A stretch of DNA of 44,839 bases from contig CAIXLU010000623.1 of assembly GCA_903920315.1 (NCBI GenBank), forward strand, positions 1 to 44,839. Reading direction: 5' to 3'. The notes below the pieces were generated by a model. The model ran no database searches. It had not been told where the DNA came from and saw nothing but the letters and a program-made list of their open reading frames with translations. Position numbers and translations under genes: made by a program. This DNA is from an uncultured Oscillochloris sp. GTDB taxonomy: Bacteria > Chloroflexota > Chloroflexia > Chloroflexales > Chloroflexaceae. Numbering within the stretch: the first letter of the stretch is position 1; every line of letters starts with the position of its first letter. This document shows, piece by piece, positions 11,136 through 44,839 of the stretch.

Positions 11136-11138
11136 GCG

Positions 11139-11411
11139 ATGCAGTGCCTGCTGATCTATGACATTCCCGACGACAAGGCGCGTGCGAAGGTGGCCGACGC
11201 CTGCCTAGACTACGGGCTGCTGCGCGTGCAGTTCAGCGCATTTCGCGGTGATCTGAGCCGCACGCACCAGCGCGAGCTGTTCGGCGAGATCCGCAAGCGG
11301 CTGGGCAAAAAGCCAGGAAACATCCAGCTCTTCCCGCTGGACGAGCGGAGTTGGGCGGCGCGGCGGGAGATTTCCCAGGGGGAGGGGAGCAATGGAGAGC
11401 AACACCTTTGA
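11139..11411 (+). CDS. cas2: Cas2 adaptation protein
   Basis: Cas2 is the structural partner of Cas1 in spacer acquisition. The protein begins with the ferredoxin-fold strand CLLIYDIPDD, carrying the conserved Asp, then RVQFSAFRGDLS and NIQLFPLDERSW. At 90 aa it is normal for the family. It lies between cas1 and cas4, and its last 20 bases overlap the start of cas4, which suggests coupled translation of the adaptation genes. Confidence 0.93.
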   Translation: MQCLLIYDIPDDKARAKVADACLDYGLLRVQFSAFRGDLSRTHQRELFGEIRKRLGKKPGNIQLFPLDERSWAARREISQGEGSNGEQHL

Positions 11412-22371: not shown

Positions 22372-22377
22372 GGTGAT

Positions 22378-22433
22378 TCACCACAAAGGCACAAAGGCAC
22401 GAAGGGTTATTGCCCTCTGTCTTTTGCCTCTAT
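22378..22433. repeat. Palindromic element copy A (degraded, intergenic)
   Basis: The left arm TTCACCACAAAGGCACAAAGG is intact up to GAAGGG; the right arm (CCTCTGTCTTTTGCCTC) has decayed. It fills the gap between the McrB-like and McrC-like genes. It supplies GGTGA for the McrC-like start and reaches the McrB-like stop codon. Confidence 0.8.
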
Positions 22434-25400
22434 AGCCCCTGCTCGCTCACGAAGGCGGTCAGTCGCCGTGCGAACAGCCCGTCCGGCGCGATACCGAGGG
22501 GCGCGGGCGGGCCGAAGATTGCCCGCACCTGGGTATCAGTCAGGGCTTCGGGCCGAACGGTATCCACACTCGGATCAATCAGGCGTAGCTGGAGAAGCTG
22601 GGCGCTCTGGCGCGGCACCGAGAGCCCGCTGAGGATGGCGATGATGGCGTTACGGAGCGCAGTACTATCCTCGGGGTGGGCAATCAGGGCCAGGAGTACA
22701 CGCAGTTCGTCGCGGGCGATCACCTGGAGTTGGTCGGCGAGGGTGTCGGCCAGAGCTGCGTCGAGGGCGCGATTCCACGCCATACCGACGGCCCGACCCG
22801 CAAGGAAGTCGCGGTAGCCCGACTCGGCCTGGGCGGTGCCAAGCTGCCGGTAGATCCGCACGGCGGCGAAGATGCGCCAGAACTGGTCGCTGGCGACGCG
22901 GGCCGCCGGATCGGCGTCCTTGCCAATGTCGTAGCGCACCGGGGTGCTGCTTTCAACACTGCCAGATCGGCGCACGCTGAGGATGTTTGTCCACGTAGCA
23001 TAGCCGAGATCCGCGTCGGCGCTAAAACCGGCCAGGCCATGCTCCGCCAGACGACTGAGCGCCCCAAACAGCGCCATCGCCTGCTCCTCCTCGCGGCACT
23101 CACGACCGGGTGGCAGCACGTCAATGAAGGTGAAGCGACGCTTCATCGCCTCGCTGATCTGGTTAAGGAAATGGCGGTCGAAGCTGTTGAGCGTTCCAAT
23201 CAGCCGGAAGTCGCGCGGGAGCCGCACGGTGCGCTCTCCGTCGTCGGTGGGAAAGGTGAGCGTCGGCTGGCACTGGCCACCGAGGGTGGTGAGCAACCCG
23301 CCGAAGGCTGCATCAACCTGAGCACGGTTGAACTCGTCAATCACCAGCCAGAGACCGCGATAGCGGTTCTCCGCAGCATCAGTGTGCTCGCGGCGGGGTA
23401 GTTCGACCGGCTCGACTGGCAGGTCGCTGGAGATCTGGTAGTTCGCCAGCACCGCCCGCGTGAGGCAGCCATGCGCCACCGTATAGACCAGCGTACTCCC
23501 GCGCTCGTCGCGCTGGATCTTCGGGGCGATCCCGCCGATGACGTGGCGCACGCCCCAGTCCTCGGTGGCGGTGACGACCTCGACCAGATAGCCCTCACGG
23601 CGCAGGGATTCCTCGAAGGGTGATTCGGTCGGCGCGAGCGCCGGGTCGTTCGGCAGCGTAAGCCGCACCGTGTCGTGATCGTCGCGCCAGAGGATGCGCG
23701 GCAGGATGCGAGCCAGGTGAGTTTTGCCCGTGCCGGGGGGGCCACTGAGAATGACATGGTGTCCGGCGATCAGCGAGCGGTAGACGCGCAGGATAGTCTC
23801 GCGGTCAATCAGGAGCTCGCGCTGGATCTCGGCGATCCGCTCCTCCAGCACGGTCGGCGGCAGGGCGCGTAGCGCGGTGTCTGTTAAGATCGGCAGGTCG
23901 CTTGGCCCGCTGCGCACCCGGCGCAGGTTTGCTAGAAACGTGTTGATTGCTTGCGCCGTGGTGCGGCTGTCGTCAAGAGGTGCGAGCGCCTGCGGCAACG
24001 CCTGCCATGTGCCATCGGCATTGCGCCGCACCAGTCCGGCCTCGGCATACCAGGCGAGCAGTGGCTCGCCCAGCGGCCAGGCATCGGCGAGGTGGGGCAG
24101 ACTGTCGAAGGGTGCCTCAAGTGCGGGCAAACGGTAGTCGTCCTCACCAACGGGCACAAGCAGCGTCAGCGCACAGTAGCGCAGCAGCAGGTCAATGCTG
24201 GCGTCGCCGAGGTGCGGCCAGCGCCGGTAGTGCCCCTCGTCAAGCGGCTCCAGCAAGCGCAGGCGCAGCAGATCATCCACCAGCCGAGCCGGGTCGGGCG
24301 GCACAGTCAGCGCGATAATCGGCGGCATGACGGTGCCCATCACATCGCAGATCGCAGCCGGAGTGTAGCTCTCACCATTCAGGTGCGTGGCCAACTGCAC
24401 GTATGGTCGGAGCTTGACGCCGAGGGTGTGGGGAAGCACGGCGGGAGTGGGATCCTTATCTTTGCTGCCCTCAAGCAACGTGCGACCATTGGGCGTAATG
24501 TGCCAGCCAGGGTTCGCCTTATCGTAGGGCGCGAGATAACCCATCGTTACCGCGACTCGGTTGATGAAGAAACACAGGCTGGTGAGACCCTGCGCCGAAA
24601 GCTTGCTGCCAGCCATGCGACTTTCCACCGCATCCGCAATCTGCTGCATCGTCGCAGTGCCGTCCAGTTCGCTGATGCGGGCAAGGGCGATGCGGATCTG
24701 GTCTGCCCCGCTGAGCCCAGCGCCCACACCGGTCGTGCCTGACTCCGAGGTCGTTATCGTATCGGCATCATCTGGTGGGGCGGCGGTTTTTTCATACCAG
24801 AGTGGGAAGATTCGCGGATCATAGAAGTGAAAGTCAGCGCCGTACACAGAGGCCAGCGCCGCACGAATCTGCTCCAGCCGTCGGTCAAGATCGTACACAC
24901 TGGGATCGGCGAGGGGTGCAAACGCCTCGCCGATCATCTGCTTGTGTTTGTGGGCCATGATTGGCTCAAACGTCGCAGGGTGAACAAGGTGCAGCAGCAG
25001 TTCGCGCTGAGCATAGGCTGGCTTGACGGGAACTGAGTTCGCAAAGTCCTTGAATGCCCAGGGGTCTGCCAAATAATGATCGCGAGTCTCGGTTGAGAGC
25101 GTCTTCCAGCGTCTGACAAACCGGAGCAGGTAGGTGAGCTGAAACGGCCTGCCGATCATGAAGAACATGGCGGCCTTCGCAATGCCCGCATCAAGCGTCT
25201 GCGCGAGATCATCGGGGATGGCGACCGGCGTAGGCGACCATTTCAGCACGGTGGTAATGCTCTGGCGCTTTGCCATACCCCCAATCCCATTGGCTGGCAG
25301 GTAGTAGATATAGAGCAACTCGCCCGCAAGTTGGTATGTAGCAGGTGCCGCGTCTACGGGTGGCTCCAGAACGTCCCCGCGTAGCTGTCGGTGTAGTTTC

Positions 25401-25588
25401 TGCTCAAAGCTATCGGCGCTCACGTCGGGGTGTTCGACGAAGCGGTGGTAGAGGTCGTCGATCACTTCGGGCGACCAGATCGGCGTGCCGGGTGTGAAGA
25501 GCGAGTCGTCGGCGCGCAGGGCACTGGCGATGAAGCGCTGGGCAGCGGCGTAGACGCGAGTGGCGGCGGGGGTGGTGAGACGGGGCAT
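22430..25588 (-). CDS. McrB-like AAA+ NTPase with large N-terminal region
   Basis: The AAA+ domain of this 1,052-aa protein starts near residue 600. It has Walker A ILSGPPGTGKTHLARIL (about 610-626), Walker B GLWLVIDEFNRAQ, and the sensor region RLIGTLNSFDRHFLNQI with AMKRRFTFIDVLPP. These are features of the McrB/MoxR-type AAA_5 group. The first 600 residues are unfamiliar and would carry target recognition; they lack a recognisable 5mC-binding fold. AAGGAG precedes the ATG. With the next gene it likely forms a nucleotide-driven restriction complex that translocates DNA and activates the nuclease. It shares the operon with rloAB. Confidence 0.75.
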   Translation of the reverse strand: MPRLTTPAATRVYAAAQRFIASALRADDSLFTPGTPIWSPEVIDDLYHRFVEHPDVSADSFEQKLHRQLRGDVLEPPVDAAPATYQLAGELLYIYYLPANGIGGMAKRQSITTVLKWSPTPVAIPDDLAQTLDAGIAKAAMFFMIGRPFQLTYLLRFVRRWKTLSTETRDHYLADPWAFKDFANSVPVKPAYAQRELLLHLVHPATFEPIMAHKHKQMIGEAFAPLADPSVYDLDRRLEQIRAALASVYGADFHFYDPRIFPLWYEKTAAPPDDADTITTSESGTTGVGAGLSGADQIRIALARISELDGTATMQQIADAVESRMAGSKLSAQGLTSLCFFINRVAVTMGYLAPYDKANPGWHITPNGRTLLEGSKDKDPTPAVLPHTLGVKLRPYVQLATHLNGESYTPAAICDVMGTVMPPIIALTVPPDPARLVDDLLRLRLLEPLDEGHYRRWPHLGDASIDLLLRYCALTLLVPVGEDDYRLPALEAPFDSLPHLADAWPLGEPLLAWYAEAGLVRRNADGTWQALPQALAPLDDSRTTAQAINTFLANLRRVRSGPSDLPILTDTALRALPPTVLEERIAEIQRELLIDRETILRVYRSLIAGHHVILSGPPGTGKTHLARILPRILWRDDHDTVRLTLPNDPALAPTESPFEESLRREGYLVEVVTATEDWGVRHVIGGIAPKIQRDERGSTLVYTVAHGCLTRAVLANYQISSDLPVEPVELPRREHTDAAENRYRGLWLVIDEFNRAQVDAAFGGLLTTLGGQCQPTLTFPTDDGERTVRLPRDFRLIGTLNSFDRHFLNQISEAMKRRFTFIDVLPPGRECREEEQAMALFGALSRLAEHGLAGFSADADLGYATWTNILSVRRSGSVESSTPVRYDIGKDADPAARVASDQFWRIFAAVRIYRQLGTAQAESGYRDFLAGRAVGMAWNRALDAALADTLADQLQVIARDELRVLLALIAHPEDSTALRNAIIAILSGLSVPRQSAQLLQLRLIDPSVDTVRPEALTDTQVRAIFGPPAPLGIAPDGLFARRLTAFVSEQGL

Positions 25589-27672: not shown

Positions 27673-30600
27673 TTAATGCTGATTTCCCTCCCCATCCCAC
27701 GCCTCCAGCACCAGCCTCCGCGTCCGGTACTCGCCGTAGAGTCTGGTCTCCTTCTCCTTCAGCACCCGGAATGTCTCGCCGGGAAAGTCTGGCCCGTATA
27801 CGTCGGCGGGGTCGAGGATGTAGCGCAGTTCGTCGCGGGTGAGGCCGTAGAGTTTGGCGATGCGTGCGTCCAGCTCGGCGCGGGCCTGGGCGCGGCGGGT
27901 GTCGTGCCAGATGAATGGGGGCGGAAGATCCGAACCAACCACAAAGGCACGAAGACACAAAGCTTTTATTTCATCTGAGCTTTGTGCCTCTGTGTCTTTG
28001 TGGTTGGCCTTCCGGCGCTCCATGATCAGCGCCCGTAGTTCGTTGTCTGCCTCCCCCCATACGTCCTCCGCGAAGGCTTTGATGTCCCAGGCGGTGTAGA
28101 CCAGTTCGACGACGCGGGGCACGATGTAGGCGATGTCGGCGGGGGTGAATGCGGAGGGCGGGAGGACGGGGAGTTGGTTCACGATGAAGAAGTTAAGGTG
28201 AATACCGCCTACTTTTGGGCGTGTAACAAAGTCGAAAGGCATACTGTCAATTATTGCAAGAAAACAGGCAATCAATAATGTTTTCACATCTTGAAACAGG
28301 ATAACAGGTGCATTATTTCCAATGCCCACCCGTGGCAACAGACTAAAGATAGCAGTACGCTCATCGGTGGAGCGGGCGATGTCACGGAAGCCAATTAGCC
28401 AGCCGCGATCCCAGCGCCCAGCCAATCGGTCAGCAACGGCGTTAGTCGGCACCCAGTAGCGCGGCGTAATCGCCATCGTCGGGTCGGCCAGTTCATCAGG
28501 CGACACGTCGCGGGCTGTGCCCTCGCCCTCCTTTGTGTCTCTGTGCCTTTGTGGTGAATCCTGATATGTCGCCCAGCGATGCGTAAATTGATGTAGCAGT
28601 TTAGCTTCATATAGCGGCAGCAGCCCCTCGCCCGGTGCGCTCTGGAAGAGGTGGCTATCATTAGACATGTCGAGCATACGCAGGAACGAAACTCCCCAAG
28701 GATTGCCGGACGTTGGAACCACAAAGGCACAAAGGCACAAAGATTCTGTATTGCTTCCGGCCTTTGTGCCTTCGTGTTTTTGTAGTTCGCCCTCACGCAG
28801 CAGCACCGGGGCGCGGCGATAGATCTTTTTGGTCAGTTCGGCATCCTGGCGGGTGCGGAAGACTGGTGCGGTACGGGTGTTTGGGTTAATCAGGGTGATC
28901 TCATCAGGCGTGAGGGTGAAAACGCGCTGCTTGTCGGTCAGATGCGTCACATTGGCCGCAAAGAAAATGAACTGAGTTGGCTCTCGCGTTGCGCCGATAG
29001 TGAGCAAGCTAAATTTATAGCTTCGATGCACACCAGGAAAGATCGCCTCACGGTTCTCAAAATCGTAGAGGCTTACAAGCTGTCGTTGAGTACTGAGATC
29101 GCCAAAGAAATCCTTAGTGGTATCGTCCGTCGCGATACCCGTGGGCACAATGATGCCCGCCCGCCCAGGTGGGGATAACAGCGTTCGGACCTGTTCGGCA
29201 AACAACGCATAGGTGTTCACGTCGCCCACCGCTGTCAGCGGGAAGCGCTCACTGGCACGGACAAAGCGGCTCTCGGCCTCGGCGCGATATTTGGCGGCGT
29301 CGAACTCGGCGATGCGGGCGCGCTGGCTCTCGTCGCCATTGCGCCAGACGGCGATCATCTTCTCGCGGGCGGACTTGTTGGCGGCCTGAGAGATCGCGGG
29401 CACGTCTACAAAATGCTCCTGCTCCTGGAGCTTAATCCGCTCCCAGGGCGGGTTGCCCAGCACAACATCAAAGCCGGACATGTTCACCACAGAGGCACGG
29501 AGGCACAGAGATTCTTTTGAATCGTCCGGCCTCTGTGCCTCTGTGCCTCTGTGGTGAAAAACCTGCGGAAACTCCAACTCCCAGTGGAAGAAGCCGACAT
29601 CCTGGGCCAACTCGAAGGCATTCTTAACCATGAGGTTGTAGAGCAGGGGCCTCTCGTTCCACTCGTCGAGCGAAGCAGTGGTGGGCACGGCCACATCTTC
29701 AGCGTCGGTGAGGCGGGAAAAGAAGGCTGCCGTCCAGAGGTTGAAGCTCACTATGTCGCTGTACGCGCCCGCGCGCAACTGCTCGTACTGACGGGCCTTG
29801 GCGCGCACGGCCGCCACACTGTTGTCGGGCATCATGCTGAGGGTGTGGACGGACGAGGCATACCGAGCGTGCGCGTCGGCAGGGGCGGCGAACTCCAGGC
29901 CGAGGTTGAGTTGGCCAGAGTGCTTGGCCTCACGCTCCTTCTTGTTGCGCTTGCGAAAGGCACCGGCGGCAGCCTTATCGTCCCCCGTCACCGGCTTGTA
30001 GGCATCGTCGGGCACACCCGCCGCGACCAGTTCGCGGGTCGCGCCAATCAGACTGTTGCCGCGCTTGATGTGGTGGTCAAGGAAACTCAGGGGCATCCCG
30101 GCGCAGTGGCCCTCGATCCAGAGGGCCAGCTTGCACAGGTCGGTCGCCAGCGGGTTCATGTCCACACCGAAGATACAGCGCTGGATGACATCGCGCACAG
30201 CGTGGCGGAAGGCAGCGGGTGTGGGCTGATCCTCACCGGCGCGCACCTTGGCCAGCTCGCGCCCGATGCGGCGGGCAGCGGCGAGGAGGAAGGCACCGGA
30301 GCCGCAGGCAGGATCAACTACGCGGATGCTCAACAGAGCCTGTTCTTTTTCTTTCACCACAAAGGCACGGAGGCACAAAGATTCTTTTGAATCTTCTGTC
30401 CTTTGTGCCTTTGTGTCTTTGTGGTTATCCTCAACGGCCTTGATCCGCTTCTCCAGCACCGGCACCAATGCGCTCTTGATCAGCTCCTGCACCAGTTCGG
30501 GGCGGGTGTAGTAGCTGCCCGTCGTCTTGCGCTCCGTACCAGCAACAAGATCGAATTTCACCACAGAGGCACGAAGGCACAAAGATTCTTTTGAATCATC

Positions 30601-32031
30601 CGACCTTTGTGTCTCTGTGCCTTTGTGGTAAATATCCTCAATGCTGACAACTGGGCGAAAATCGAGCAGGGACTCGTAAACACTGCCCAGTTCTTCCACA
30701 TCCAGGGCACCGTAGTTAACCCGGCGCAGCCCCTTGCTCACCTTCTCGCGGTAGAGCGAGAGCTTGCGCATGGCGGCGAGCAGGTCGGCGTTGCGTAGCT
30801 GGGTGGTGGTGGTGAGGTCGCCACAGGCGGCATCGCTGAACAGGTCGCCGTCGAGGGGGGCCAGACCGAGGCGGCGCGGCGCATCCTCATCGCTCCCCTC
30901 GAAGAGACGAAACGTGGTCAGCAGACTCAACCAGAGGTCGCCGAAGGGGCCGCGCCCAGTGCCGGAGGATTCGGCGAGGCGGCGCAGGCGACCCACGGAG
31001 TAGTGGTCGTAGTAGATTCGCAGGGCAGTGTTTGGAGGAGGAACCACAAAGGCACGAAGCCACAAAGATTCTTCTCTGTCGTCCGGCCTTTGTGTCTCTG
31101 TGCCTTTGTGGTTCGCTTCTGCCGCGATCAGCCCGCGCTCCTCAGCAACCATCAGGAAGAGCAGCCGGTAGACCAGACGCAGCAACTGGCGATAATACTC
31201 CAGCGGCGTCAGGCGGCCATCGGCGAGCTTGGCGCGCAGTTGGGCGTTGGCCGGGTGGGCGAGCAGGCCGTTGCCAAGCAGCTTCAGGGCACCCTCAACA
31301 CCATCACGCAGACCCTCGCGCACCCGCCCGCCCGCCTCAATGGCCTGCTGGTGATACTGCTCTAACAGACAGTGTGAACTATCGGCACTCGTCACCGGAA
31401 AGCGCGAGCGGTGGAGTAGCCGGTAAAGAAGGGCGAACTCGGCGAACTGCTCGCCCTCCAGCATCGTGCGCAGGTCAAACTCGACGTAGGCGGGGCGGGT
31501 GAAGCGGGCCGAGTCGCGCAGCAGGCGCAGCCGTTCGCCGTTGGTGACAATGCCCCAAAGTTGCTCGGTGCTGTTGAGGTATTCCTGCATCAGCGCGTGG
31601 GGCGAGAGGCGTGGGCGACCCGACGGGGGCCGTGCGTCGAGGCTGGCGCGGATGCCCTCGATATGAACCGGGGGCGCGTCCTCATCATCACCGGCGCGGT
31701 GCGAGATTGCGTAGGTGCGGCCATCCACTACCGCCGCCGTGGGCAGATAGGTCAGCTTATAGCCTAGTGTCTCCAGCAGAGGCACTATCCAGCGCTCACG
31801 GGTGATGGTTGTCGCCGGGTCATTATCGCGCACGCGGCGCAACGAGCGCTGGAACGCCTCCCAGTACGCACGGGCATCGGCCCACGCCGCCGCGATCTCG
31901 TCAGTGAGACGGCGAATCTGCTCGAAGCCGAAGTCCTCGGGGCGCTGGCCGGTCAGTTCCCCCTGCGCGAGCGCGTCGAGGATGTCGGCAGGAATGAGTC
32001 CACCCTCAGTTGTGATCGTAGAGTAGGGCAT
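27673..32031 (-). CDS. Eco57I/DrmMI-like adenine-N6 DNA methylase with in-frame palindrome insertions
   Basis: Motif I DPACGSGAFLLAAARRI (about 571-587) binds AdoMet, and LGNPPWERIK (about 858) is the catalytic NPPW motif; SYYTRPELVQELI precedes motif I. This is the type IIG/PglX/DrmMI layout, with a C-terminal target-recognition region. The frame is open from 32082, but the first 17 codons come from a repeat. ATG 32031 (MPYSTITTEGG) with GGTGA upstream is the better start, giving 1,452 aa. Six full and one partial palindrome insertions add about 160 residues, for example at 306-330, 466-491, 535-559 and 824-849. I see no separate nuclease motif, so it probably protects host DNA. Its activity with these insertions is uncertain. 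Confidence 0.8.
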   Translation of the reverse strand: MPYSTITTEGGLIPADILDALAQGELTGQRPEDFGFEQIRRLTDEIAAAWADARAYWEAFQRSLRRVRDNDPATTITRERWIVPLLETLGYKLTYLPTAAVVDGRTYAISHRAGDDEDAPPVHIEGIRASLDARPPSGRPRLSPHALMQEYLNSTEQLWGIVTNGERLRLLRDSARFTRPAYVEFDLRTMLEGEQFAEFALLYRLLHRSRFPVTSADSSHCLLEQYHQQAIEAGGRVREGLRDGVEGALKLLGNGLLAHPANAQLRAKLADGRLTPLEYYRQLLRLVYRLLFLMVAEERGLIAAEANHKGTETQRPDDREESLWLRAFVVPPPNTALRIYYDHYSVGRLRRLAESSGTGRGPFGDLWLSLLTTFRLFEGSDEDAPRRLGLAPLDGDLFSDAACGDLTTTTQLRNADLLAAMRKLSLYREKVSKGLRRVNYGALDVEELGSVYESLLDFRPVVSIEDIYHKGTETQRSDDSKESLCLRASVVKFDLVAGTERKTTGSYYTRPELVQELIKSALVPVLEKRIKAVEDNHKDTKAQRTEDSKESLCLRAFVVKEKEQALLSIRVVDPACGSGAFLLAAARRIGRELAKVRAGEDQPTPAAFRHAVRDVIQRCIFGVDMNPLATDLCKLALWIEGHCAGMPLSFLDHHIKRGNSLIGATRELVAAGVPDDAYKPVTGDDKAAAGAFRKRNKKEREAKHSGQLNLGLEFAAPADAHARYASSVHTLSMMPDNSVAAVRAKARQYEQLRAGAYSDIVSFNLWTAAFFSRLTDAEDVAVPTTASLDEWNERPLLYNLMVKNAFELAQDVGFFHWELEFPQVFHHRGTEAQRPDDSKESLCLRASVVNMSGFDVVLGNPPWERIKLQEQEHFVDVPAISQAANKSAREKMIAVWRNGDESQRARIAEFDAAKYRAEAESRFVRASERFPLTAVGDVNTYALFAEQVRTLLSPPGRAGIIVPTGIATDDTTKDFFGDLSTQRQLVSLYDFENREAIFPGVHRSYKFSLLTIGATREPTQFIFFAANVTHLTDKQRVFTLTPDEITLINPNTRTAPVFRTRQDAELTKKIYRRAPVLLREGELQKHEGTKAGSNTESLCLCAFVVPTSGNPWGVSFLRMLDMSNDSHLFQSAPGEGLLPLYEAKLLHQFTHRWATYQDSPQRHRDTKEGEGTARDVSPDELADPTMAITPRYWVPTNAVADRLAGRWDRGWLIGFRDIARSTDERTAIFSLLPRVGIGNNAPVILFQDVKTLLIACFLAIIDSMPFDFVTRPKVGGIHLNFFIVNQLPVLPPSAFTPADIAYIVPRVVELVYTAWDIKAFAEDVWGEADNELRALIMERRKANHKDTEAQSSDEIKALCLRAFVVGSDLPPPFIWHDTRRAQARAELDARIAKLYGLTRDELRYILDPADVYGPDFPGETFRVLKEKETRLYGEYRTRRLVLEAWDGEGNQH
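27935..28007. repeat. Palindromic element copy B (in methylase)
   Basis: Arms CCAACCACAAAGGC and TGTCTTTGTGGTTGG pair around a short centre. It is read in frame as NHKDTEAQSSDEIKALCLR plus AFVV near residue 1350 of the methylase. Confidence 0.9.
28528..28561. repeat. Palindromic element copy C (half, in methylase)
   Basis: Only the right arm is present (CCTTTGTGTCTCTGTGCC then TTTGTGGTGAATC). It is read in a different frame from the other methylase copies, as SPQRHRDTKEG, and remains open. Confidence 0.8.
28716..28788. repeat. Palindromic element copy D (in methylase)
   Basis: Full palindrome with arms GAACCACAAAGGC and TGTTTTTGTAGTTC; the right arm has drifted slightly. Read as QKHEGTKAGSNTESLCLCA plus FVV near residue 1090. 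Confidence 0.88.
29483..29558. repeat. Palindromic element copy E (in methylase)
   Basis: Full palindrome with arms TTCACCACAGAGGC and GCCTCTGTGGTGAA. The centre ATTCTTTTGAAT is itself palindromic. Read as HHRGTEAQRPDDSKESLCLR plus ASVV, about eight residues before the NPPW motif. Confidence 0.92.
30353..30427. repeat. Palindromic element copy F (in methylase)
   Basis: Full palindrome with the ATTCTTTTGAAT centre. Read as NHKDTKAQRTEDSKESLCLR plus AFVV, about 12 residues before methylase motif I. Confidence 0.92.
30557..30632. repeat. Palindromic element copy G (in methylase)
   Basis: Full palindrome nearly identical to copies E and F. Read as YHKGTETQRSDDSKESLCLR plus ASVV, shortly before the SYYTRPELV segment. 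It is only 130 bases from copy F. Confidence 0.92.
31041..31114. repeat. Palindromic element copy H (in methylase)
   Basis: Full palindrome with arms GAACCACAAAGGC and GCCTTTGTGGTTC. Read as NHKGTETQRPDDREESLWLR plus AFVV near residue 315. Confidence 0.92.
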
Positions 32032-32035
32032 ATTG

Positions 32036-32057
32036 TATTCACCACAGAGGCACGAAA
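32036..32057. repeat. Palindromic element arm I' (left outer arm before GxxExxY unit)
   Basis: TATTCACCACAGAGGCACGAA is a left arm without its right partner nearby. On the minus strand it supplies the GGTGA ribosome site of the methylase. With arm J it brackets the GxxExxY gene. Confidence 0.8.
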
Positions 32058-32065
32058 ATCGGAAA

Positions 32066-32144
32066 GCCAACCACAAAGACACGAAGGCACAAAGATTTTT
32101 TTGAGTTGTTCGGCCTTTGTGTCTTTGTGCCTTTGTGGTTAGCC
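32066..32144. repeat. Palindromic element copy I (full, intergenic)
   Basis: Full palindrome from GCCAACCACAAAGAC to CCTTTGTGGTTAGCC with a T-rich centre. It abuts the stop codon of the GxxExxY gene (32139) and lies inside the outer arms I' and J. Confidence 0.9.
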
Positions 32145-32540
32145 TCCGTTCGGATTACCATTGACGAGTCGTTTGATACCGCGTTTGAGTACAGGCGTGT
32201 TGAAGTTTATCAGTAGACCCAGCCACAGATTGCGCATGCGAAGGTAGGTAAGAAGTTGGGCTTCGTGAATAGGCACAAACGCATCGACCGTCTTAAGCTC
32301 GACGATTACCAGATCCTCGACCAAGAGATCGAGGCGATAGCCACAATCCAATCGTACCCCTTTGTAGACAACTGGCAGCGGCACCTGTCGTCCGAAGGCG
32401 ATATTTCGCAACTGAAGCTCATACGCCAGACACTCCTCGTACGCAGACTCGAGGAGCCCGGGGCCGAGGGCGCGATGCACTTCAATCGCTGCACCGATGA
32501 TGAGATTAGAAAGCTGGTCAGATCTGGCTTGTATATCCAT
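32139..32540 (-). CDS. GxxExxY family protein (PDDEXK_3), nuclease-like
   Basis: The 133-aa protein matches the GxxExxY family (PF13366 type): [20 protein letters not shown] carries the name motif G-x-x-E-x-x-Y. The nuclease-like core is [21 protein letters not shown] with the E-x-K pair, then the terminal [20 protein letters not shown]. It is a member of the PD-(D/E)XK fold group, but its biological role is unknown. It lies between the SNF2 helicase and methylase genes, bracketed by arms of the palindromic element. The ribosome site AAAGG before its ATG is part of arm J, and its stop lies in copy I. This suggests the gene belongs to the repeat and not to the defence operon. Confidence 0.88.
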
Positions 32541-32576
32541 AAGACCTTTGTGCCTTTGTGCCTTTGTGGTTAGTTC
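32541..32576. repeat. Palindromic element arm J (right outer arm)
   Basis: AAGACCTTTGTGCCTTTG continuing to TTTGTGGTTAGTTC is a right arm without a local left arm. It provides the TAA stop of the SNF2 helicase gene and the AAAGG ribosome site of the GxxExxY gene. Confidence 0.85.
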
Positions 32577-35545
32577 ATAGTTGGCCAGAGTACATAGAAG
32601 CCAAGGACATCGGGGAGGCCAGAGGAGCGTACCGTCACGCGCCCGCCCCCAGTCTGGGAACGGACACGCTGGTGCGACCCGCGCAGGTGATCGGCGCGGG
32701 CATCGGCGACCGCCTTGAGGTCGCTGCTCAGGCCGGGGAGTAGGGCCAGGGCGTCGGTGATGCCCTGGGTGCGCTCGGCGGCGCTCACATTCTCACAAGG
32801 CTCCGCGCGGCGCAGCAGATCAAGGGCGTCCACCTCATCGAGCCAGCGGATCTCCCCGTCCTCGCGGGTATAGCCGCTGACCACCAGTTCCTCAGCGAGA
32901 GACGAGGCAGCGTGGCGCGGGCTCTCGATCAGGGCGCGGATGCGCAGGAGCAGCAGCACAGTCGTCCGCTTAACCATATTCGTGATGATCAGGCCGCTGC
33001 GCGCCGCAAGCGGGCGCTCATCGCCGGGGATCAGCGCGGTTTCGAGTACATAGTCGGCAAGGGCGGCGGTCAACGGGTGATTCCTACCGATGCTCTCGAC
33101 ATTGGCCGGTGCGGCCGCCGCGAAGGTCAGGGTCAGATCGCCTCGTTTATCGGCCAGGTGCGCCACACGCTCGCGCACGGGCGGCGGGAGTTGGCTCACA
33201 TCAACCACAAAGACACGAAGACACAAAGACCGGACAGAACTATTGGCATCTTTGTGCCTTTGTGCCTTTGTGGTTAGTTCAGAAAGCGACACCCCCAGCC
33301 GCTCGCACGCCGCACGGACAAACGTTTCGACGGCAGCCGGGTCGCCGAGTACCGCATCGCTCTCTTCCAGTTCCTGCGCGACCTCCTCAGGCCGGATGCG
33401 GCGCTGCGCAAAGCGGGTGCGGCTCTCCTTCTCACGGGCCACCGCATCATCCCAGTGATGCTCAATCGCCTGCAACTGCTCATCGGCTGTCGCCAATTCT
33501 CCGTGCGGATCGCCCTCGAAGAGTCCCATCTGTCGCGTGCTGGTCCCAAAGAGCGAGGAGATCAGGGCGTTGACCATCGTATGGGTGTCCACGGGCAGCG
33601 GCACGCTGATGCCGAGACTGCGGTGGATACTGACCGCCTTGCGCAGCAGCACCTTCATCACCGCCTCGTCCATCGGGTTGTCCTTGCCGTAAATCAGCGC
33701 CGTTCGCACCATCGGCGCCCGCTGGCCGTAGCGATCCACCCGGCCCTCACGCTGCTCCAGCCGATTAGGGTTCCAGGGCAAGTCGTAGTGGATGACGGCG
33801 TCGAAGGCATGCTGGAGGTTAATGCCCTCGCTCAGACAGTCTGTGGCGACGAGCAGACGGCGTGGGCTGCGGCTCAGTTCATCAATCAGCACCTCGCGCT
33901 CTTCCTCAGAACGTTCGCCCGTCACGGCGAGTATCCGCAATTCTCCGCCGCTTACCTTGAGGTGTCCACCCAGTTGCTGGGCAAGATAGGTGGCGGTGGC
34001 GATGTAGCGGCAGTAGACAATCGGGTTGAAGCCCGCGCGCAGCAACTCGGACAGCAAAGGGATGAGCGCCTGGAGCTTCGGGTCGTCCTTGCCCTGCAAT
34101 TCCGCAGCGCGGGCCGCAAAGCGGTTCAGGCGGGCACGCGAGTCACCCTTTTCACCACTGAGGCACAGAGACACAGAGGGTTTTTCATTTATGTCATCCA
34201 GGCTACCGAGTACAGGTTCAAAATCGGCTACTTGTTCACTTTCTGTATCTTCACTCACCGCCTGTCTGAGTATCGTCTCAACTGCGATCAGTGCTTCTTC
34301 GTCTTCATCATCTCTGTGTCTTTGTGCCTCTGTGGTACCATCTTCCGCACGCACGCGCAGCGCCTTCTCGGCTGCGGCCGGGCTGCTCATCACGCAGCGC
34401 AGCAACGCCAGGGCAGCCCAGTAGCGCGCACGCTGGTGCACCCGTGTCACGTGGGCATCGGCGCTCTCGCGCACCAGTTCACGGGTGAACTCAAACACAT
34501 CGTCGAACAGCTTCCGATAACCGGCAGCGCGAGCGAATGAATACGTTACTTCCGCCGACTCGCGGGCCGGGAAGGGCGTATCTTCATGTAGCCAGTGGCG
34601 CACATCGGCGCGGCGGCGCTGCACAAAGTGGCGTGCGAGGTCATCGCGCTCGCGCTCCGCCAGCCGCTCCATGCTCAGTGCGGCGAAGCGCGGATCGAGC
34701 AAGCCGAGCAGGCTTCGGAACGCGTCCTCAATGCCCGAGTGCGGCGTGGCCGTGATCAAGAGCAGGTGCCGATCCGGCTGCGCCGCCACCGCCCGCACCA
34801 GGTCGTAGCGTTGCTGCTGGCTCGCACCGCGCCCACCCGAGTCGGTGGCGGTATGGGCCTCATCCACGATGATCAGGTCGGGGGCGGCACGCAGAAAGTT
34901 ATCGCGTCGTCGTCCGCTCTTCACGTAATCAATGCTGGCCACGGTGATCGGGTAGTGTTCCCAGAGGCTCACATCACCGCGTGGCAGGCCACGCTCCAGG
35001 CCCGCAGCCGTACTGGAGCGCACCACCACCGCATCCAGGGCAAACTTCTCGCTCAGCTCACGCCGCCACTGGTCGCAGAGGTGTGGCGGGCAGAGCACGG
35101 TCAGCCGACGGATCTCGCCCCGATCGTATAGTTCGCGGGCAATCAGGCCGGCCTCGACCGTCTTACCAATACCGACGTCATCGGCAATCAGCAGGCGCAC
35201 CGTCTCTAGGCGCAGGGCCATCAGCAGCGGTACCAGTTGGTACGAGCGCGGGCGCACGCCAATCCGTCCCAGTGAGCGAAACGGCCCCGCGCCACTGCGC
35301 AGACTTAGGCGGGCAGCGTCGCGCAGTAGTTGTCCCGAAGCGAAGTCGCCCGAGGTCGCTGGGTCAGGCGATGGGAACGTTGCCGACCCAACGCCATTGC
35401 CCTCGACCGGCAGGTAAATGCCGCAAACCTCTGCCTCCGTGCCGCCAAGTGGTCGGAGCATCAGCAGATCGGGGTGTTCCGACGGGAGTACCACCCACTC
35501 ACGCTCGCGGCAACTGACCAGGGAGCCAACTTCGAAACGGGGCAT
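32570..35545 (-). CDS. DrmD-like SNF2/SWI2 helicase
   Basis: Motifs in this 991-aa protein are [17 protein letters not shown] (Walker A), [10 protein letters not shown] (DEAH), [10 protein letters not shown], and in the second lobe [17 protein letters not shown] and [11 protein letters not shown]. The N-terminal [16 protein letters not shown] and LRPLGG match the start of DrmD, the SNF2 helicase of class 1 DISARM. DrmD with an adenine methylase is expected for DISARM-like systems that restrict phage DNA. It carries two palindromic insertions, at about residues 403-465 and 756-780. AGAGGTG precedes the ATG. Its stop codon comes from arm J, so the original C-terminus may have been altered. Confidence 0.78.
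33203..33276. repeat. Palindromic element copy K (in SNF2 helicase gene)
   Basis: Arms AACCACAAAGACACGAAG and GCCTTTGTGGTT around an altered centre. Read as [20 protein letters not shown] plus VFVV. The first half uses a different frame from most methylase copies. Confidence 0.9.
34150..34336. repeat. Palindromic element copy L (arms separated by about 130 bp, in SNF2 helicase gene)
   Basis: The left arm TTTTCACCACTGAGGCAC (34150-34180) and right arm CTCTGTGTCTTTGTGCC to GTGGTACC (34311-34336) are the usual arms. The centre is expanded to about 130 bases of unrelated sequence. The whole block stays open and adds about 62 residues. Confidence 0.75.
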
Positions 35546-35555
35546 CAGGGCACCT

Positions 35556-37142
35556 CTAGAATTTTGATAGAATCTCTCCGGCTGCCTTGATGATCAGTGC
35601 ATGGTCGCCTTCGCGGCAGTCGATATACTGCACGAGTTCCATATAGGTGGGCAATGTGCAGGTTCGGAGATAGATGGGGGCCAGAACCTTTCGGCCCTCC
35701 CTGCGATTACGTATCAGTGCGATACCGTATTCCTCCAGGCAAATCGCCGAGGCAAGGTACTGCGGCGTATAGAGTGTGACAATCTTCGCACAGCTATCGA
35801 GCGACTCAAGAATCTCCTGCTGCCAGGCAGTACCGGGCTTGAGTACAAGGGTGTCCTGAAAGATGCGGATGTCGGTCTGCTGCCGTTTCAGTTCAGCGAC
35901 TAGGACGTCCACCTCGTCCTTATTGGCATGGCAGTAGCTGATGAACAGGTCGTATTTGTAGCTGGTGGTCGGTGCGGTGACGGGCGGCGTATAGAGGCGC
36001 TTGAGTACGCCGAAGGCACCCCGCAGTTCGGCGGCGCTGATGTCAGAATAGGCCACCACCTTGATTGTCTCAATGGGCAGACCAGCATGGAACCAGTGGG
36101 TTGCTGCCTCAAAGAGGGGCGCGATCATCTCAACCGTGGAAACACCGTGTACACCGCCCCCCAGGATGGGCATTGCAATGCTGTTGATAGGCGTCTTGCT
36201 GCTCATTGATACGAGACATTGGAAGATATCGCCAATCACCTCGGCGGGTTCGCCCCGTTGCTTTGGCTCAAAGCAGAGGATGCGCTGAAACTGGACGGCA
36301 GGGCCGGCTGCCTCGATAGGCTTCGACAGCCAGCAGGCGAGGGTTGGTCGAAAATCCTCCGCCTTGTCGGTCGCCAGGGCTTCCAGCGAAACACCGCGCC
36401 GATCTAACGCGCCAATCAGTGATTGACGCGATGGGCGATAACTATCCGGGAGCGCTGAGACGACCAGCACGTCAACGGCCTCCTTCGGCGGGATGGCCGT
36501 GAGGTCGCCCTGGTAGATCGCGATCGTGCGTGGCCCCCCGCTGGTGGTGATCGTCAGGCTATCCAGGAGTTGAAACGCCGGGGGTGGCGACGCAGTGCCA
36601 GGAAGAATCTGGCTCGCCTGCGATGGGATCATACTGGTGGCGCGGCGGTCATTAGGTTCACGGTTTCCGTCACCGCGCTCGGGGTGTTCGTAGCGTTCAA
36701 ACGCTGCGAAGAAGGTGGGTCGCTCGGCCCTATAGGTCGCGAAGCGCTCAAGGATCGCACGCGTGCCGGGAGTCACAGTCGGGCCAACCGTAGCTCCTGA
36801 TGCAATGTCAATCGGGATAATACTCATGTCTGAGCGACATAGCCCGAGCGCACGTACCTCAGATGGATCGGTGATTTTCGGAGTCCCCGTTGCTCGCATA
36901 TAGCAGACCCGGTGCTGGTTCGAGGTTTCATGATCGAAGAGTGTTACCGCTGCCGTTGCGCGGAGGCTCGTCTCCTCGTACAGCTCGCGGATCGCCGCCT
37001 CGAACCGCGTCTCGTGGGGCCGATCCGCGCCGCCGCCAGGAAGCATCCAGTGATCGCCGTCGCTCACCACGAGGACGCCGCGCTCACCCCCATGCACTAT
37101 CTCGACCAGAGCCGTTCCGCGCCGCCGCTTAGTGGGTGCCAT
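35556..37142 (-). CDS. Nudix - macro-like - TIR fusion protein
   Basis: Three domains are visible in 528 residues. An N-terminal Nudix hydrolase has box G38-x5-E44-x7-R52-E53-L-x-E56-E57, with Ser for the usual late Gly. A middle region (about 185-370) resembles a macro domain: YQGDLTAIPPKEAVDVLVV and SIAMPILGGGVHGVSTVEM. A C-terminal TIR domain (about 395-528) has YDLFISYCHANKD, an Asp in IFQDTLVLKPG, and Glu residues in WQQEILESLDSC that could be catalytic. TIR enzymes cleave NAD, macro domains bind ADP-ribose compounds, and Nudix enzymes hydrolyse them, so one polypeptide may make, sense and remove the same signal. AGGAG precedes the ATG. Spacing to both neighbours is about 10 bases. Confidence 0.75.
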   Translation of the reverse strand: MAPTKRRRGTALVEIVHGGERGVLVVSDGDHWMLPGGGADRPHETRFEAAIRELYEETSLRATAAVTLFDHETSNQHRVCYMRATGTPKITDPSEVRALGLCRSDMSIIPIDIASGATVGPTVTPGTRAILERFATYRAERPTFFAAFERYEHPERGDGNREPNDRRATSMIPSQASQILPGTASPPPAFQLLDSLTITTSGGPRTIAIYQGDLTAIPPKEAVDVLVVSALPDSYRPSRQSLIGALDRRGVSLEALATDKAEDFRPTLACWLSKPIEAAGPAVQFQRILCFEPKQRGEPAEVIGDIFQCLVSMSSKTPINSIAMPILGGGVHGVSTVEMIAPLFEAATHWFHAGLPIETIKVVAYSDISAAELRGAFGVLKRLYTPPVTAPTTSYKYDLFISYCHANKDEVDVLVAELKRQQTDIRIFQDTLVLKPGTAWQQEILESLDSCAKIVTLYTPQYLASAICLEEYGIALIRNRREGRKVLAPIYLRTCTLPTYMELVQYIDCREGDHALIIKAAGEILSKF

Positions 37143-37151
37143 GATATGCTC

Positions 37152-40100
37152 CTAAGATTTCCAGAAGGGGTACGGGGCGATTTGCTCGCCCACATCTCGG
37201 TCAGGGTCAATCAGGTAGACAACCCGCCCGCGCTCGATCAGCGCATCGCGTAGCTGCGTCACGTCCTCGCCGGGGGCTGGACAGAGCAGGCAGGTGCGGC
37301 CAAAGCGCAGGTAACGCTTGGTGTCATCGCCCTCGATGGTCGGCTCCCGCCCACCGTTGCTGCGTACATACTCCATCACGCGGCGGATCGAGGTGGAGAG
37401 GCTGGTGGTATCGTGCGTAGATAGCGTGACACTCTGACGTTCCACCCGTGCGCTGGCGAGGCCGCGCAGCATGTCGCGCACCGCGTAGCGGTTGAGCCGG
37501 GAGTGCTGCGGCTGATTGCTGTAGGTGAGCAGACAGCGATAGCAGGCTCGTGCACAGGAGTCGCCCGCAGGGAGCTCCACGCCCGTCTCCGGATCGAAGT
37601 GGCAAATCTCTAAGGCTGTGCGGGCGACCTGGGCAAGCGCGCTGGGTTCATCCACCAGCCGACGCAGCACGCCCGCGCCGCCCTCAGCCGCCTCCCAGAT
37701 CAAGATCTGGCGCAGCGCACCCTCACCCAACAGCTCAGATTGCAACTCCTGATCCTCAAGCTGGAAGGATTCCTTGATACCGCGCTGAAGGGCGTTTTGC
37801 AGGCTCATGATCTGCTCATCGTCGGCGGCCAGTTGCGGATCGCACTGAATCAGCAAGATATTGCGGGTGTCGTGGACGACAATCCGCACGTCCTCACGCC
37901 GATCACTGCTTTGCTCAAGAGGATCACCCTCATCTGCCTCATCAGGGGCCTTATTCCAGAGACCGTGCTGGAGATCGAGGGTGAAACCCTCCTTACGCGC
38001 ACGCTTCCAGCCATGATTCATCCGCCAGATCGTGGCCTGGGCACCATAGCTCAGAGCCAACGGCATAAACCCTTCGCCCTGCACCTGTGCGCGGACACGG
38101 CGCAGCGTGCCACTTGCGGCGGCGAAGCGGTAGTGCGTCGTGATCCGGTAGCCCTCACGGCGGCGCTCCTCCTCCTCGCAGGTAATGCGCTCGATCCGCC
38201 TGGTACTGACCGTTGTCATCTCAAACAGGTGGTCGAAGATTCGCGCCTGATTCCCATGGAGCGGCGTGCCGCACTGCTCACACACATCAGCGGCGTGGCC
38301 TTCGTGAAAGTAGCCACACGGGGTGCAGATCTTCGCCTGGCGCAAGCGTCGCTCGGCGCTTCCCGATGGGAGCATCGAGCGCACCACCTGATACTTACGA
38401 CCCTCGTGATAGATAATATTCTGCGGCCCAAACTCAGCAAGTGCCAGAAAGCGGGGTCGGGCGATGAAGGTTCCGTCGTCAACATCGGTGCGAAGGAAGG
38501 CCCGCACCGGCAGACGTGGAAAGTTGTAGCCGGGGAGAAAGCCCTCGCTGGCCAAGTAGCGGTAGGGATAGAACTCGGCGTCGCTCTTCCCCCCGCTTTG
38601 GATATTACAGAGGATATCCTTCTGCCGCACCGCATCCTGATAACTGCGATCTGCATCTTTGATCTCACGCGGCGTGAGTGAGCCACGGCGGTGAGCGCGG
38701 CGACGCAGCGCGATGGCCTCTTGGAGTTGGTTGTCCGCGAGTTGATACAGCTCACGCCAACGGTCAAAGGCATGATCAAACTGGACAACTGCCCCGGCGA
38801 GGTGTTCGACGAGCCAGTCTGCGTGAAACCAGGGCAGGTTCACGAGAGTCGGAAGCACCGTGCGAAGCACATCGGCACACATCGCGTTACAGCGGGCGGT
38901 GGCAGAAGGGTCGAGGGTCAGTCGGCGACGTACTTCCGCGTGGAGCGGAAGGTCGGGCTGGTCGGTGTCAATGATATCGTGGATCATCGTCCCCAGATCG
39001 AAGCTCGTAGAGGCCAGCCAGATCGCGTGGATATGTGCTAGCACCAGATCCTCATTTGCCAGTTCGATCTGTGGCGGGGCCACCGCACCGGCAACCATCT
39101 GGAGCGGTCGTTGGAAGAAATACTGGTCGTGGCCGCTGCCCATCGAGCAGTAGGTCATCACCAGGGCGGCCTGGCCGCTGCGCCCGGCCCGCCCGGAACG
39201 CTGGGCGTAGTTCGCAGGAGTGGGCGGCACATTCCGCATGTGGACGACATTTAGATCCGCGATATCAATGCCCAATTCCATCGTCGGCGAGCAGTAGAGT
39301 ACCTGTAGCTCGCCGTCGCGGAAGCGTCGCTCACGCTCGACCCGGACGTCTTGCGGGACTTGGCCGGTGTGTTCGCGGCCCTCCACGGCCCGCAATCGCT
39401 CGGCGGCATTCAGGTAGAGGTCGCGAAAGAAGCCATTAACCTAGCGGGTAGCGGGCTGGGCTCCCGCCATGCGTCGGGCGCGAATAGGATTTGCCTCAGG
39501 CACCGTACCATCTCCGCAGCACCACAGCAAGGCATCGTGGCGGATCTGCACACTGCGCAGGGACTCTCCCTCGCTGTCGCCGGTCAGAATATTCGCGCCG
39601 ATCAGCACCGTCAGGAGTGCCCTGAGCAATGCCTCATAATCGTCATCCTTCAGCCGCTCAGAAAGATGCGGCCATGCATCAGGCGAACGCAGAAACCGAC
39701 CGATGGCTGTCCGGGTGGCGAGGCTGCGCCCGCCTGGCGGCAGCGGTTCATCGCTTGGCATGACATAGCGTGTGGACTTACGCAGCACCACGACCTCGTG
39801 ATCATCGAGCTTCCAGTCATCGTTGACCTTCGCGTTATAGCGGTTGACCCACTCACCCTGATGCTCCGGGTCAAGGCGTGGCGCATCAATCGCCAACTCG
39901 GAGCGCATATGTTCAAGGAGCGCACGGATGGTGCGCGTCCGGTTGGCAGCGGATGCGGCGTGCAGCACGGGGTTACCCACCCAGTAGTCCGGCTCCGCAC
40001 AGAGCTCATCAAGATCAAGGTAATCAACACGCAACAGCCCACACTGCTCCAAGTTCGGCTGGGTCACCCGCCAACTGCGGCGCAGATCTTCGTAAATTCG

Positions 40101-42215
40101 GTACTCCAGCAACAGCGTGAGCGCCTCCTCATTGCGCCTCCGTGCCATCGGAGTCGTCCCGACATCTTTGGCATAGCGTTCCTGGGGGAGGGCGAAGGTC
40201 GTGCAGACACGCGACGCGATGGTGGCGTGTGTAAGCGGGTCGCCCGCAGCCTGCTCCGCAATGGTACGAGCAATCGCCGAGCGGAGCGTCGCCACGCTTG
40301 CGAAGTCGTTAAAGTGACCAGCCTGAAGCGAGGCGTCCTGACGATTATCGGTGAAGCTGAGCAGCTTCTTGGCCGTATCGTTAAGGTCAGAGCGGCGCAA
40401 CTCCTCGATCGTCGCTGCGGAGAGCAGCGTAGTCGCCGTACTGCGACCCTCACTACTCAGGCGTGCCAACTTACGAAAGTCATCCTCACGCTTGGTATAG
40501 ACCACCCCGCAGCGCAGGCAGGTGAGGAAGGGGCTTGGCAGAAACCAGCAGGGCGTCGCATCCGTACGGCCCTCTGCCAAACTCCCATCGGAACGCACAA
40601 ACAGATGGCGCGGGACAAACTCCTTGTACTCGCGCAAGATGCTCCGACCACGCCGCGTGATACGGAACCACGTATCAGGCAGACGGTCACTATCCTCTTC
40701 TGACCAGATTTCATCGCCGACCGCGAGGTAACCCGCGACGGCTGGACGCTCCACATCCTCACCGCGCGAAAGCGGGTGGCGCGGATCAATTCGGTTGGCC
40801 GCAGGGTCGTAGGCACAAAGGGCGTAGTGCTGACCACACTCGCGGCAGAAGACCTGTGGGAAGAGGAGGCGGGTGCTTCCGGCCCCACCGATATAACGCT
40901 GCCCCTCCAGGGTCAACTCTCGGCGATCCGGGAGATCCGTCGTCGCGTAGACCGCACCACCCTGTGAGATGAACTGGTGCAGCTTGAAGGCGAAGGGAGC
41001 TCTCTCCCCGTCGTCATGGCGCGTACCCAGTTGGAAGAAATGAAGGAGTGCGGCCTCGCATTCCAGTACTGGCTCGCTCGTCTGCGCGGCAAGTAGCGCG
41101 GCTCCCTCGCGCAGACTCTTTGGCTTCGCACGCATAAGCTGATTGGTCTGCGGGTCAACATCGAGGCTAAAAGTATCTTCGATCCATGCGGCCAGCGGGT
41201 GCTGGCGGAAGGCATCACCACTCAGCGCGGTGGGCAGCGGCGTGCGGAGCGCCGCAATCAACTGTTCCTGCGTGGGATGATGATAGCTCGACACCGTGCG
41301 GGTCAGTGTCTCGGTGATGACCTGGTCTGGACCGAGAGGTACACCAAAGATCGTACTCGCCACGGCGGCGACCGGGATGCGTGGATCCGCATTGCTCTCC
41401 GTACTCGCCATAGTCGCGCTTGTACCGATACACGTGATATTGGCATTACCGCAGCGCTCACGCAGGCGACGGATGAGCATCGCCACATCCGCACCTTGGC
41501 GGCCACGGTAGGTGTGCAACTCATCGAATACCACAAACTGGAGATCGCTCATCCCGGCCTCAACAAAGCGATACTCTGCAGGTCGAGTGAGCATCAACTC
41601 CAACATCACATAGTTCGTGAGCAGAATGTGGGGCGGATTCTCCTGGATCTCGCGCTTCTCGTGATCGCGCTCCTGCCCGGTATAGCGTCTGACTCGTACC
41701 AGATCGCGCTGCTCGGGCGGCAGGTTGGACAGGAATGCGTTGATCCCGATCTCCTGCGAGTTGATCAGCGCGTTCATCGGATAGACCAGGATCGCACGCA
41801 CCTGTCCTCGTTCGGGCTGATGGCGCAGGACATAATCGGTGATCGGAATGATATAGGTCAGACTCTTGCCGGAGCCAGTGCCCGTCGTGACCACATAGTG
41901 TTTTCGCTGCCGTGCGAGATCAATCGCTTCGCGTTGATGGCGATACAGCGTCAGCGACTGCGTCGTGGTGCCATCATGAGAGACAAAGATCTCGCCGCAA
42001 CGTGGGTGCAAGACATGGTGTGCGACCAAGTCCGCAACAGTGTCTGCGGGGGTGTAGGCCGGAGAGAGCTGAATAAGTGCGTCAGGCCAAAGCGTGCCCG
42101 CATCAAGTTGGGTATGGACATACGTGCGGATCGCGGGGTCGGCGATCGTGAGGAAGCTCGTGGTGTAGGCCGCATAGGTAGCGATGATATGACGTCGCAG
42201 ATGGAAGACATCCAC
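37152..42215 (-). pseudogene. DEAD/DEAH helicase with DUF1998 domain, interrupted by one in-frame TAG
   Basis: This is one gene of 1,688 codons, split by TAG at 39443-39441. Both halves are in the same frame and join within conserved sequence: PATR, stop, VNGFFRDLYLNAAERL. The first half has Walker A TTGTGSGKS, VFDELHTY and GTSATM. The second half has SPTMELGIDIADL and QRSGRAGRSGQ, then the C-terminal DUF1998 region with cysteine clusters (CTPCGYF...CEQCG; CARACYRC). Homologous helicases act in DISARM (DrmA/DrmB functions) and in MrfA-type repair. The start is GTG 42215 (VDVFHLRRHI) with AGAGG upstream; the frame extends to 42311 without family-like sequence. Amber readthrough or sequencing error remains possible. 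Confidence 0.8.
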
Positions 42216-42583
42216 AGGCGGGCCTCTCGCACGACATAGACAGGAGTGACACAAAAAGGGCTTCGCAACGATCTTGCTTGGCGGCGAAGATCGGGATGTC
42301 ACGGTGTACAACCTGAGATCGTCGCTACACGGATGCGCTGCGCTGGACTACGGAGCACCTTGCGGGGGGTCGAAGGGGATGCTACAATAGCAGACACAGC
42401 ACTATAAGATTGTCACAGAGCCCACTCTCGCTTTCCGGCCGGGTGGGTTTTGTGCATGCTGACGATAGTATAGCATTATGCGTGGGGATTGCACATCCTC
42501 TACGCGCTCGTTCCTGGATCGCTGTTCAACAGCGCTCGATGATCTTGGTGACATGAGCAGGTTTCTTTATGTCCAGCGGCACA
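42216..42583. promoter_or_regulatory. Intergenic region upstream of the helicase operon
   Basis: No gene is evident. CCCAC (42421-42425) and GTGGG (42443-42447), enclosing a CCGGCCGG palindrome and followed by TTTT, form a weak terminator-like structure; its direction suits the plus strand better. The promoter for the minus-strand operon must lie here, but I see no strong match to -35 and -10 boxes. The primase gene ends at 42584 on the same strand. Confidence 0.35.
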
Positions 42584-44707: not shown

Positions 44708-44839
44708 AGCTGTACTCTTCTCCGAACAACTCGTTGTGTGCGAGTCTCGGACATCGAAAACGGATAGACGCGAACGAAGCTCTGGTTTTTCCTCCAGGGC
44801 TTTGTCATTGCCGCAATTGTGTAGGGGTGGCCCTCTGGC
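44708..44839. other. Right edge, upstream of primase
   Basis: Apart from the primase ribosome site GGAGAAGAG (minus strand, near 44715-44723) I see no gene or clear promoter in these last 132 bases. The primase promoter may lie here or beyond the window. Confidence 0.4.

Follow-up and report, generated by a model that had tools for sequence, protein, structure and literature searches.

A single gene encoding a Nudix, a divergent macro and a TIR domain lies between the two helicase genes of a defence operon of an uncultured Oscillochloris sp. The operon matches ARMADA Type I in gene content and order, and the gene is an addition to it. We tentatively propose that the encoded protein serves this operon as an accessory module with an NAD-signalling or effector role, in which the TIR domain would cleave NAD+, the macro domain would read the product and the Nudix domain would limit it. 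The stretch of DNA that was analysed, the 44,839 nucleotides of contig CAIXLU010000623.1, is referred to below as the window.

The gene is a single open frame with an ATG start, placed exactly where the first-pass annotation had put it (35556–37142, minus strand), and is present in one copy in the host genome, a 716-contig draft. Pfam searches with the 528-aa protein returned NUDIX (aa 6–99, E 4.8e-9) and TIR_2 (aa 400–512, E 7.8e-18), each exceeding the gathering score; nothing was matched between the two, and no macro match was obtained even at E 10. With the middle region assigned as described below, the three-domain anatomy is confirmed. It is rare: among the searched Chloroflexota genomes, all three domains were found together only in the window. 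Coordinates of the gene, its domains and its neighbours are compiled in Table 1.

Table 1. Features of the Nudix-macro-TIR gene and of the surrounding operon (window positions).
Feature	Position	Strand	Evidence
Nudix-macro-TIR gene, 528 aa	35556..37142	-	single open frame
Nudix domain, aa 1-158	36669..37142	-	Pfam NUDIX; PDB 3f13
Nudix box, aa 38-60, GADRPHETRFEAAIRELYEETSL	36963..37031	-	sequence
Divergent macro domain, aa 189-386	35985..36578	-	hhalign, AlphaFold2, fold matches
TIR domain, aa 395-528	35559..35960	-	Pfam TIR_2; aligned with 3jrn and 7uwg
TIR catalytic Glu471 in SAICLEE	35730..35732	-	alignment to known TIRs
Shine-Dalgarno-like AGGAG, overlaps YprA helicase stop	37149..37153	-	TTAGGAGCATATCATG
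Shine-Dalgarno-like AGAGGTG of BrxHII gene, overlaps Nudix-macro-TIR stop	35551..35557	-	TTCTAGAGGTGCCCTGATG
N-terminal part of YprA-like (DruE-like) helicase, terminated by in-frame TAG	39441..42311	-	Pfam DEAD 2.4e-25; PADLOC DruE3 9e-48
YprA-like helicase, C-terminal part, MZB (DUF1998) zinc domain	37152..39395	-	Pfam Helicase_C 8.9e-15, MZB 5.1e-9
BrxHII-like SNF2-type helicase (DpdE/DrmD-like)	32570..35545	-	PADLOC; Pfam SNF2 and Helicase_C
Small PD-(D/E)XK_3 protein	32139..32540	-	Pfam PDDEXK_3 7e-44
PglX-like DNA methyltransferase	27673..32082	-	PADLOC DrmMI 1.5e-63, PglX 4.1e-10; Pfam Eco57I 2e-16
McrBC-like pair: AAA GTPase-like (22430-25588) and partner (20707-22371)	20707..25588	-	Pfam AAA_5

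Profile comparison, an AlphaFold model and fold matches in the PDB agree that the middle region is a divergent macro domain. A profile of three relatives of aa 189–386 aligned with the window copy was compared by hhalign with five canonical macro domains, giving a probability of 96.8 (E 2.6e-10, 166 columns) and a score of 68, whereas the controls (20 column-shuffled profiles and one reversed, one TIR and one Nudix profile) scored about 17 or less. Canonical macro proteins were also the next-best matches in a profile search of 158 genomes. Sequence matches of the region in the PDB were all weak (best E 0.0075), and 24 of the 25 were macro domains. The AlphaFold2 model of aa 186–396, computed from two sequences, reached a pLDDT of 74 and a pTM of 0.76, and a fold search seeded with it retrieved macro domains as best matches (macroH2A1.1, PDB ID: 2fxk; Z 15.2, rmsd 3.5, 179 residues); a full-length model from a two-row alignment (pLDDT 36) was discarded. 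A relationship to SPX was considered and rejected: titles and match ranges of the top SPX-domain structure matches (7d3y, 5iit and 5lnc) point to macro domains used as crystallisation carriers. The macro-like middle postulated by the first-pass annotation is thus borne out by hhalign, AlphaFold2 and the fold search, despite the lack of a Pfam match.

Within this fold, the second glycine loop is retained as GGGVHG, as is a GDLT sequence, which aligns with the GDI motif, but the NAAN motif and GGGV loop that define the MacroD type are not, VSALP and SRQSLIG standing in their place. Loss of NAAN and of the first glycine loop fits a reading or scaffolding role better than a hydrolytic one. The first phosphate loop has diverged and the second is missing in one relative (G423), so that binding of a ligand by this domain is uncertain. 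When 400 genomes of the phylum were searched with a profile of the macro subfamily, only the window genome and one other, G380, were recovered. The relative in the latter has a DUF4145-like C-terminus, scoring under the Pfam cut-off; its gene lies beside those for an AAA ATPase and a ParA-like ATPase (KGGVGR), and the locus (L034:11032-15617) may be another conflict system. The subfamily has no Pfam model and deserves one.

The TIR domain carries the Glu expected of a TIR NADase, on which the first-pass annotation had made its reading depend. E471 aligns with the Glu of SSWCLDE in the plant TIR 3jrn and with that of TNYE in the bacterial TIR 7uwg, which we take to be the catalytic residues of TIR NADases, and it is invariant in an alignment of three family members.

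The Nudix domain matches a Nudix protein in the PDB (3f13, E 1.5e-10). Its Nudix box retains the catalytic RELYEE (the REXXEE part) and ends in Ser instead of Gly; the copy in G401, a genome from another genus of the same family, has Gly at this position. A Pro 16 residues past the box marks classical ADP-ribose pyrophosphatases (PMC6856373); it is absent here, Gln76 occupying the position, as is the SQPWPFPxS motif of ADP-ribose specificity. Since no such specificity motif is present, the role of the domain as eraser of an ADP-ribose-type signal is one that we infer, and further clades of ADP-ribose Nudix enzymes exist beyond the classical type (PMC5389931). In a Nudix tree the window domain clustered with that of G401, and its position among the other relatives from the family was unsettled; we therefore do not claim an origin from the Nudix-MacroD fusions mentioned below.

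ARMADA Type I consists of a YprA-like helicase, a BrxHII-like helicase and a PglX-like methylase, in this order (Bell et al. 2025, PMC12458937). All three are found in the window on the minus strand in the same order, with the extra gene between the first two. The YprA-like helicase has its DEAD and DUF1998/MZB domains, and the BrxHII-like helicase matched several PADLOC families (DpdE 1.9e-195, DrmD 3e-96, BrxHI/HII 1.4e-57). The PD-(D/E)XK_3 protein occupies the same place in several ARMADA loci. YprA-containing, DISARM-like cassettes often lie beside McrBC (Bell et al. 2025, PMC12458937), and homologues of the McrBC-like pair adjoin ARMADA helicases in four other loci (L044, L045, L046 and L050); the match of its AAA GTPase-like gene to the NCBIfam McrB-like family (5e-10) is far under the cut-off, and its partner gave no family match. 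ARMADA Type I fits the operon better than DISARM does. DISARM Class 1 needs separate DrmA and DrmB, whereas helicase and MZB domain form one frame in the relatives, and no DrmC/PLD nuclease was present among the scanned proteins. Druantia membership was likewise considered and set aside. The first-pass annotation had named the neighbours as a DUF1998 helicase and a DrmD-like helicase, which holds, except that the former is split by a stop and that the operon is of ARMADA Type I. Its statement that no TIR component had been described at this place fits the main text of the ARMADA paper, in which the words 'TIR' and 'nudix' do not occur (PMC12458937).

The stop is an in-frame TAG (39441–39443) between the two helicase halves of YprA, which are in the same frame; in relatives (G401, L058 and others) the gene is uninterrupted, with one frame of about 1690 aa. 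The genome being a draft of 716 contigs, the stop may be either a mutation or a sequencing or assembly error. Further genes were noted in the window. Upstream of YprA, a 751-aa protein open at the window end (42584–44839) gave no match in Pfam, PADLOC or NCBIfam. An AbiL-like pair (25644–27582; AbiLi 1.1e-103, AbiLii 2.1e-30) is located between the methylase and the McrBC-like genes. A protein with a CHAT protease domain and a C-terminal P-loop (STAND-like) ATPase is encoded at 18537–20693, with a Tn3-family transposase nearby (14587–17580), and a Type I CRISPR-Cas cluster spans 1238–11991 (WYL regulator, Cas3, Cas8a, Cas7, Cas5a, Cas6, Cas1 and Cas4).

The Nudix-macro-TIR gene is closely fitted between the helicase genes. 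The gaps of about 10 bases reported previously measure 9 bases towards YprA (37143–37151) and 10 bases towards BrxHII (35546–35555). A further 61 BrxHII loci, almost all of them belonging to this phylum, were compared; neither a Nudix-macro-TIR protein nor a similar TIR was found within the stretches examined. YprA lies directly upstream of BrxHII, without the gene, in 34 of them, and in the closest relative, G246 (BrxHII 88% identical), only 7 bases separate the helicase genes. On one contig of this genome (L040), two ARMADA BrxHII/methylase sets lie in tandem; they are the closest relatives of the BrxHII in the window. Given its absence from other ARMADA loci, the Nudix-macro-TIR gene is not a core ARMADA component. 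Different genes occupy the same space elsewhere: a 403-aa gene with a JukB match (E 8e-23) in the ARMADA Type I operon of the Ca. Chlorohelix plasmid (NZ_CP128401.1; L058:13788-14999), a PemK/MazF-like toxin gene in G094 (L049:7656-8000) and a truncated macro gene in G190 (L090:6546-7220). The space between YprA and BrxHII therefore looks like a cargo slot for effectors, and is a place to seek new ones; the same variety supports the rival view, weighed below, of an independent effector.

A link to a second genus is provided by G401. Its slot holds a 160-aa Nudix ORF that is 76% identical to the window domain and starts at the same position. In the roughly 100 bases after the ORF, the beginning of the macro domain can still be aligned (PAFQLLDSLT against PAFQHLDHFA), and this remnant joins a TAGAGG-type junction of stop codon and ribosome-binding site directly before BrxHII. 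The simplest reading is that an ancestral Nudix-macro-TIR gene resided in the slot and that its macro and TIR parts would have been deleted in G401. Linkage of the three domains to this operon elsewhere thus stands as the Nudix ORF and macro relic of G401, the full fusion being present in none of the 61 loci. Between the window and G401, dS and dN/dS were 1.04 and 0.155 for the Nudix domain, 0.92 and 0.152 for BrxHII, and 0.78–0.95 and 0.10–0.14 for YprA. These helicase-like values indicate that the Nudix domain has travelled with the operon under purifying selection, that its stay there is roughly as old as the divergence of the helicases, and that its constraint resembles theirs; a large part of this constraint may predate the deletion in G401.

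Outside the slot, macro-TIR and Nudix-macro each occur as separate units. Macro-TIR proteins of 340 and 342 aa are encoded in G422 (L068; JAFAYS010000049.1, a Chloroflexota MAG) and G423 (L064), outside ARMADA within the stretches examined. They are about 41% identical to the window protein over macro plus TIR and share with it the domain order and the lost NAAN, and differ in having no Nudix domain, which is therefore not needed for a host to tolerate macro-TIR. Conversely, in three members of the same bacterial family (G012, G024 and G403) a Nudix domain is followed, as in the window, by a macro domain, here a canonical one with NAAN and glycine loop, without TIR. A TIR fragment was also noted close to transposase genes in G442. 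With the 528-aa protein as query, tblastn against plasmids gave TIR matches only, and none were obtained there with the middle domain or a macro-TIR relative; the G380 macro relative had no match in plasmids and phages. Two scans of viral contigs revealed no relative of the Nudix-macro-TIR protein, and a scan of genome contigs with strict patterns retrieved a single contig, evidently that of G422.

In NAD/ADP-ribose conflict systems, TIR, Nudix and macro domains are known partners (PMC9503650; PMC7159879), and the idea that they make, read and erase a signal is plausible. In the mechanism that we infer, building on what was observed (the domains with their key residues, the operon and the exact slot, and the link to a second genus in its deleted form), the module would be made together with both ARMADA helicases. 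Infection, or an overwhelmed ARMADA complex, would lead the TIR domain to cleave NAD+ to ADP-ribose or a relative of it. The macro domain, devoid of the MacroD catalytic motif, would bind this product and tune the assembly or activity of the TIR domain, and the Nudix domain would hydrolyse it (or a related NDP-X), thereby setting a threshold that would hold the module inactive as long as no phage is present. The module would fire only above this threshold and might be coupled to ARMADA as a back-up. Binding of ADP-ribose and imidazole adenine dinucleotide, produced by a partner TIR, by the macro domains of Thoeris (Shi et al. 2024, PMC11204291) is the nearest experimental precedent. The stricter form of the proposal, a writer, reader and eraser of a NAD-derived immune signal in one polypeptide that is part of a DNA-targeting defence operon, where it would be a self-limiting fail-safe triggered only once the signal outpaces the Nudix domain of the same protein, we regard as rather unlikely. 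Of the first-pass interpretation as a whole, the macro-like middle, the TIR Glu and the link to the operon hold; that link extends to other loci only as the Nudix ORF and relic of G401. Against the module being a requirement, the 34 loci with adjacent helicases do without it, and ARMADA Type II defence is reported to be direct and non-abortive (PMC12458937), so that a TIR killer is not required.

It is conceivable, albeit somewhat unlikely, that the gene is cargo and not a partner: a small, independent gene for defence or for a toxin, sitting in a permissive slot and merely profiting from transcription of the operon. The slot is mostly empty, its contents vary (JukB-like, PemK-like toxin, macro relic) and the nearest relative, G246, has no such gene. 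The ribosome-binding-like sites, which overlap stop codons exactly on both sides of the gene, and the match of the Nudix dS and dN/dS to those of the helicases across two genera argue in the other direction. We consider it unlikely that the Nudix domain, instead of erasing the TIR product, gates the TIR domain as a sensor or as an enzyme acting on another NDP-X (NAD-capped RNA, a phage nucleotide, or free ADP-ribose signalling stress). Nudix sensor domains fused to HTH regulators have been described (PMC9503650), the ADP-ribose signature is missing and the Nudix domain of G401 has outlived macro and TIR; however, the catalytic box is intact, and in the same bacterial family related Nudix domains occur in fusions with canonical macro domains that process ADP-ribose, suggesting ADP-ribose chemistry.

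The interrupted YprA means that the operon may be decaying in the window genome, and the fusion could then be a relic without present function. The macro-TIR deletion in G401 and the TIR fragment near transposase genes in G442 would fit such an explanation, but the 528-aa frame is unbroken and its catalytic residues are conserved, and the YprA stop may be an artefact of the draft; we find a relic very unlikely. If the accessory module works as proposed, all steps of an ADP-ribose-type immune signal would reside in one protein, so that point mutations in a single gene would suffice to study how a TIR is held to a threshold, and a NAD-based effector would be joined to a helicase-methylase system reported, for Type II, as direct and non-abortive. 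No compound name for Nudix-TIR, TIR-macro or Nudix-macro was found in the literature searched; the parts and their chemistry are known, but no description of their combination, of this macro subfamily or of the slot in ARMADA could be found.

Among known systems, Thoeris with a TM-macro ThsA (PMC11204291) has a TIR for an ADP-ribose-type product and a possible macro reader, as predicted here. The window differs in uniting both in one polypeptide, in the added Nudix domain and in the lack of an adjacent ThsA-type effector gene, the neighbours being helicases and a methylase. The gene is not assigned to Thoeris, its TIR domain being weakly ThsB-like (PADLOC ThsB 1.2e-5, 22.6 bits) and its NCBIfam ThcB4 score 26.6 bits against a cut-off of 220. 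NadM-type and other ADP-ribose/NAD Nudix enzymes have the Nudix fold and catalytic box in common with the window domain, and the classical ADP-ribose pyrophosphatases differ from it by their specificity motif. With the ARMADA Type I of Bell et al. (2025, PMC12458937) the operon shares the helicase/helicase/methylase order and a nearby McrBC; it differs in the Nudix-macro-TIR gene between the helicases, of which the main text of that paper makes no mention.
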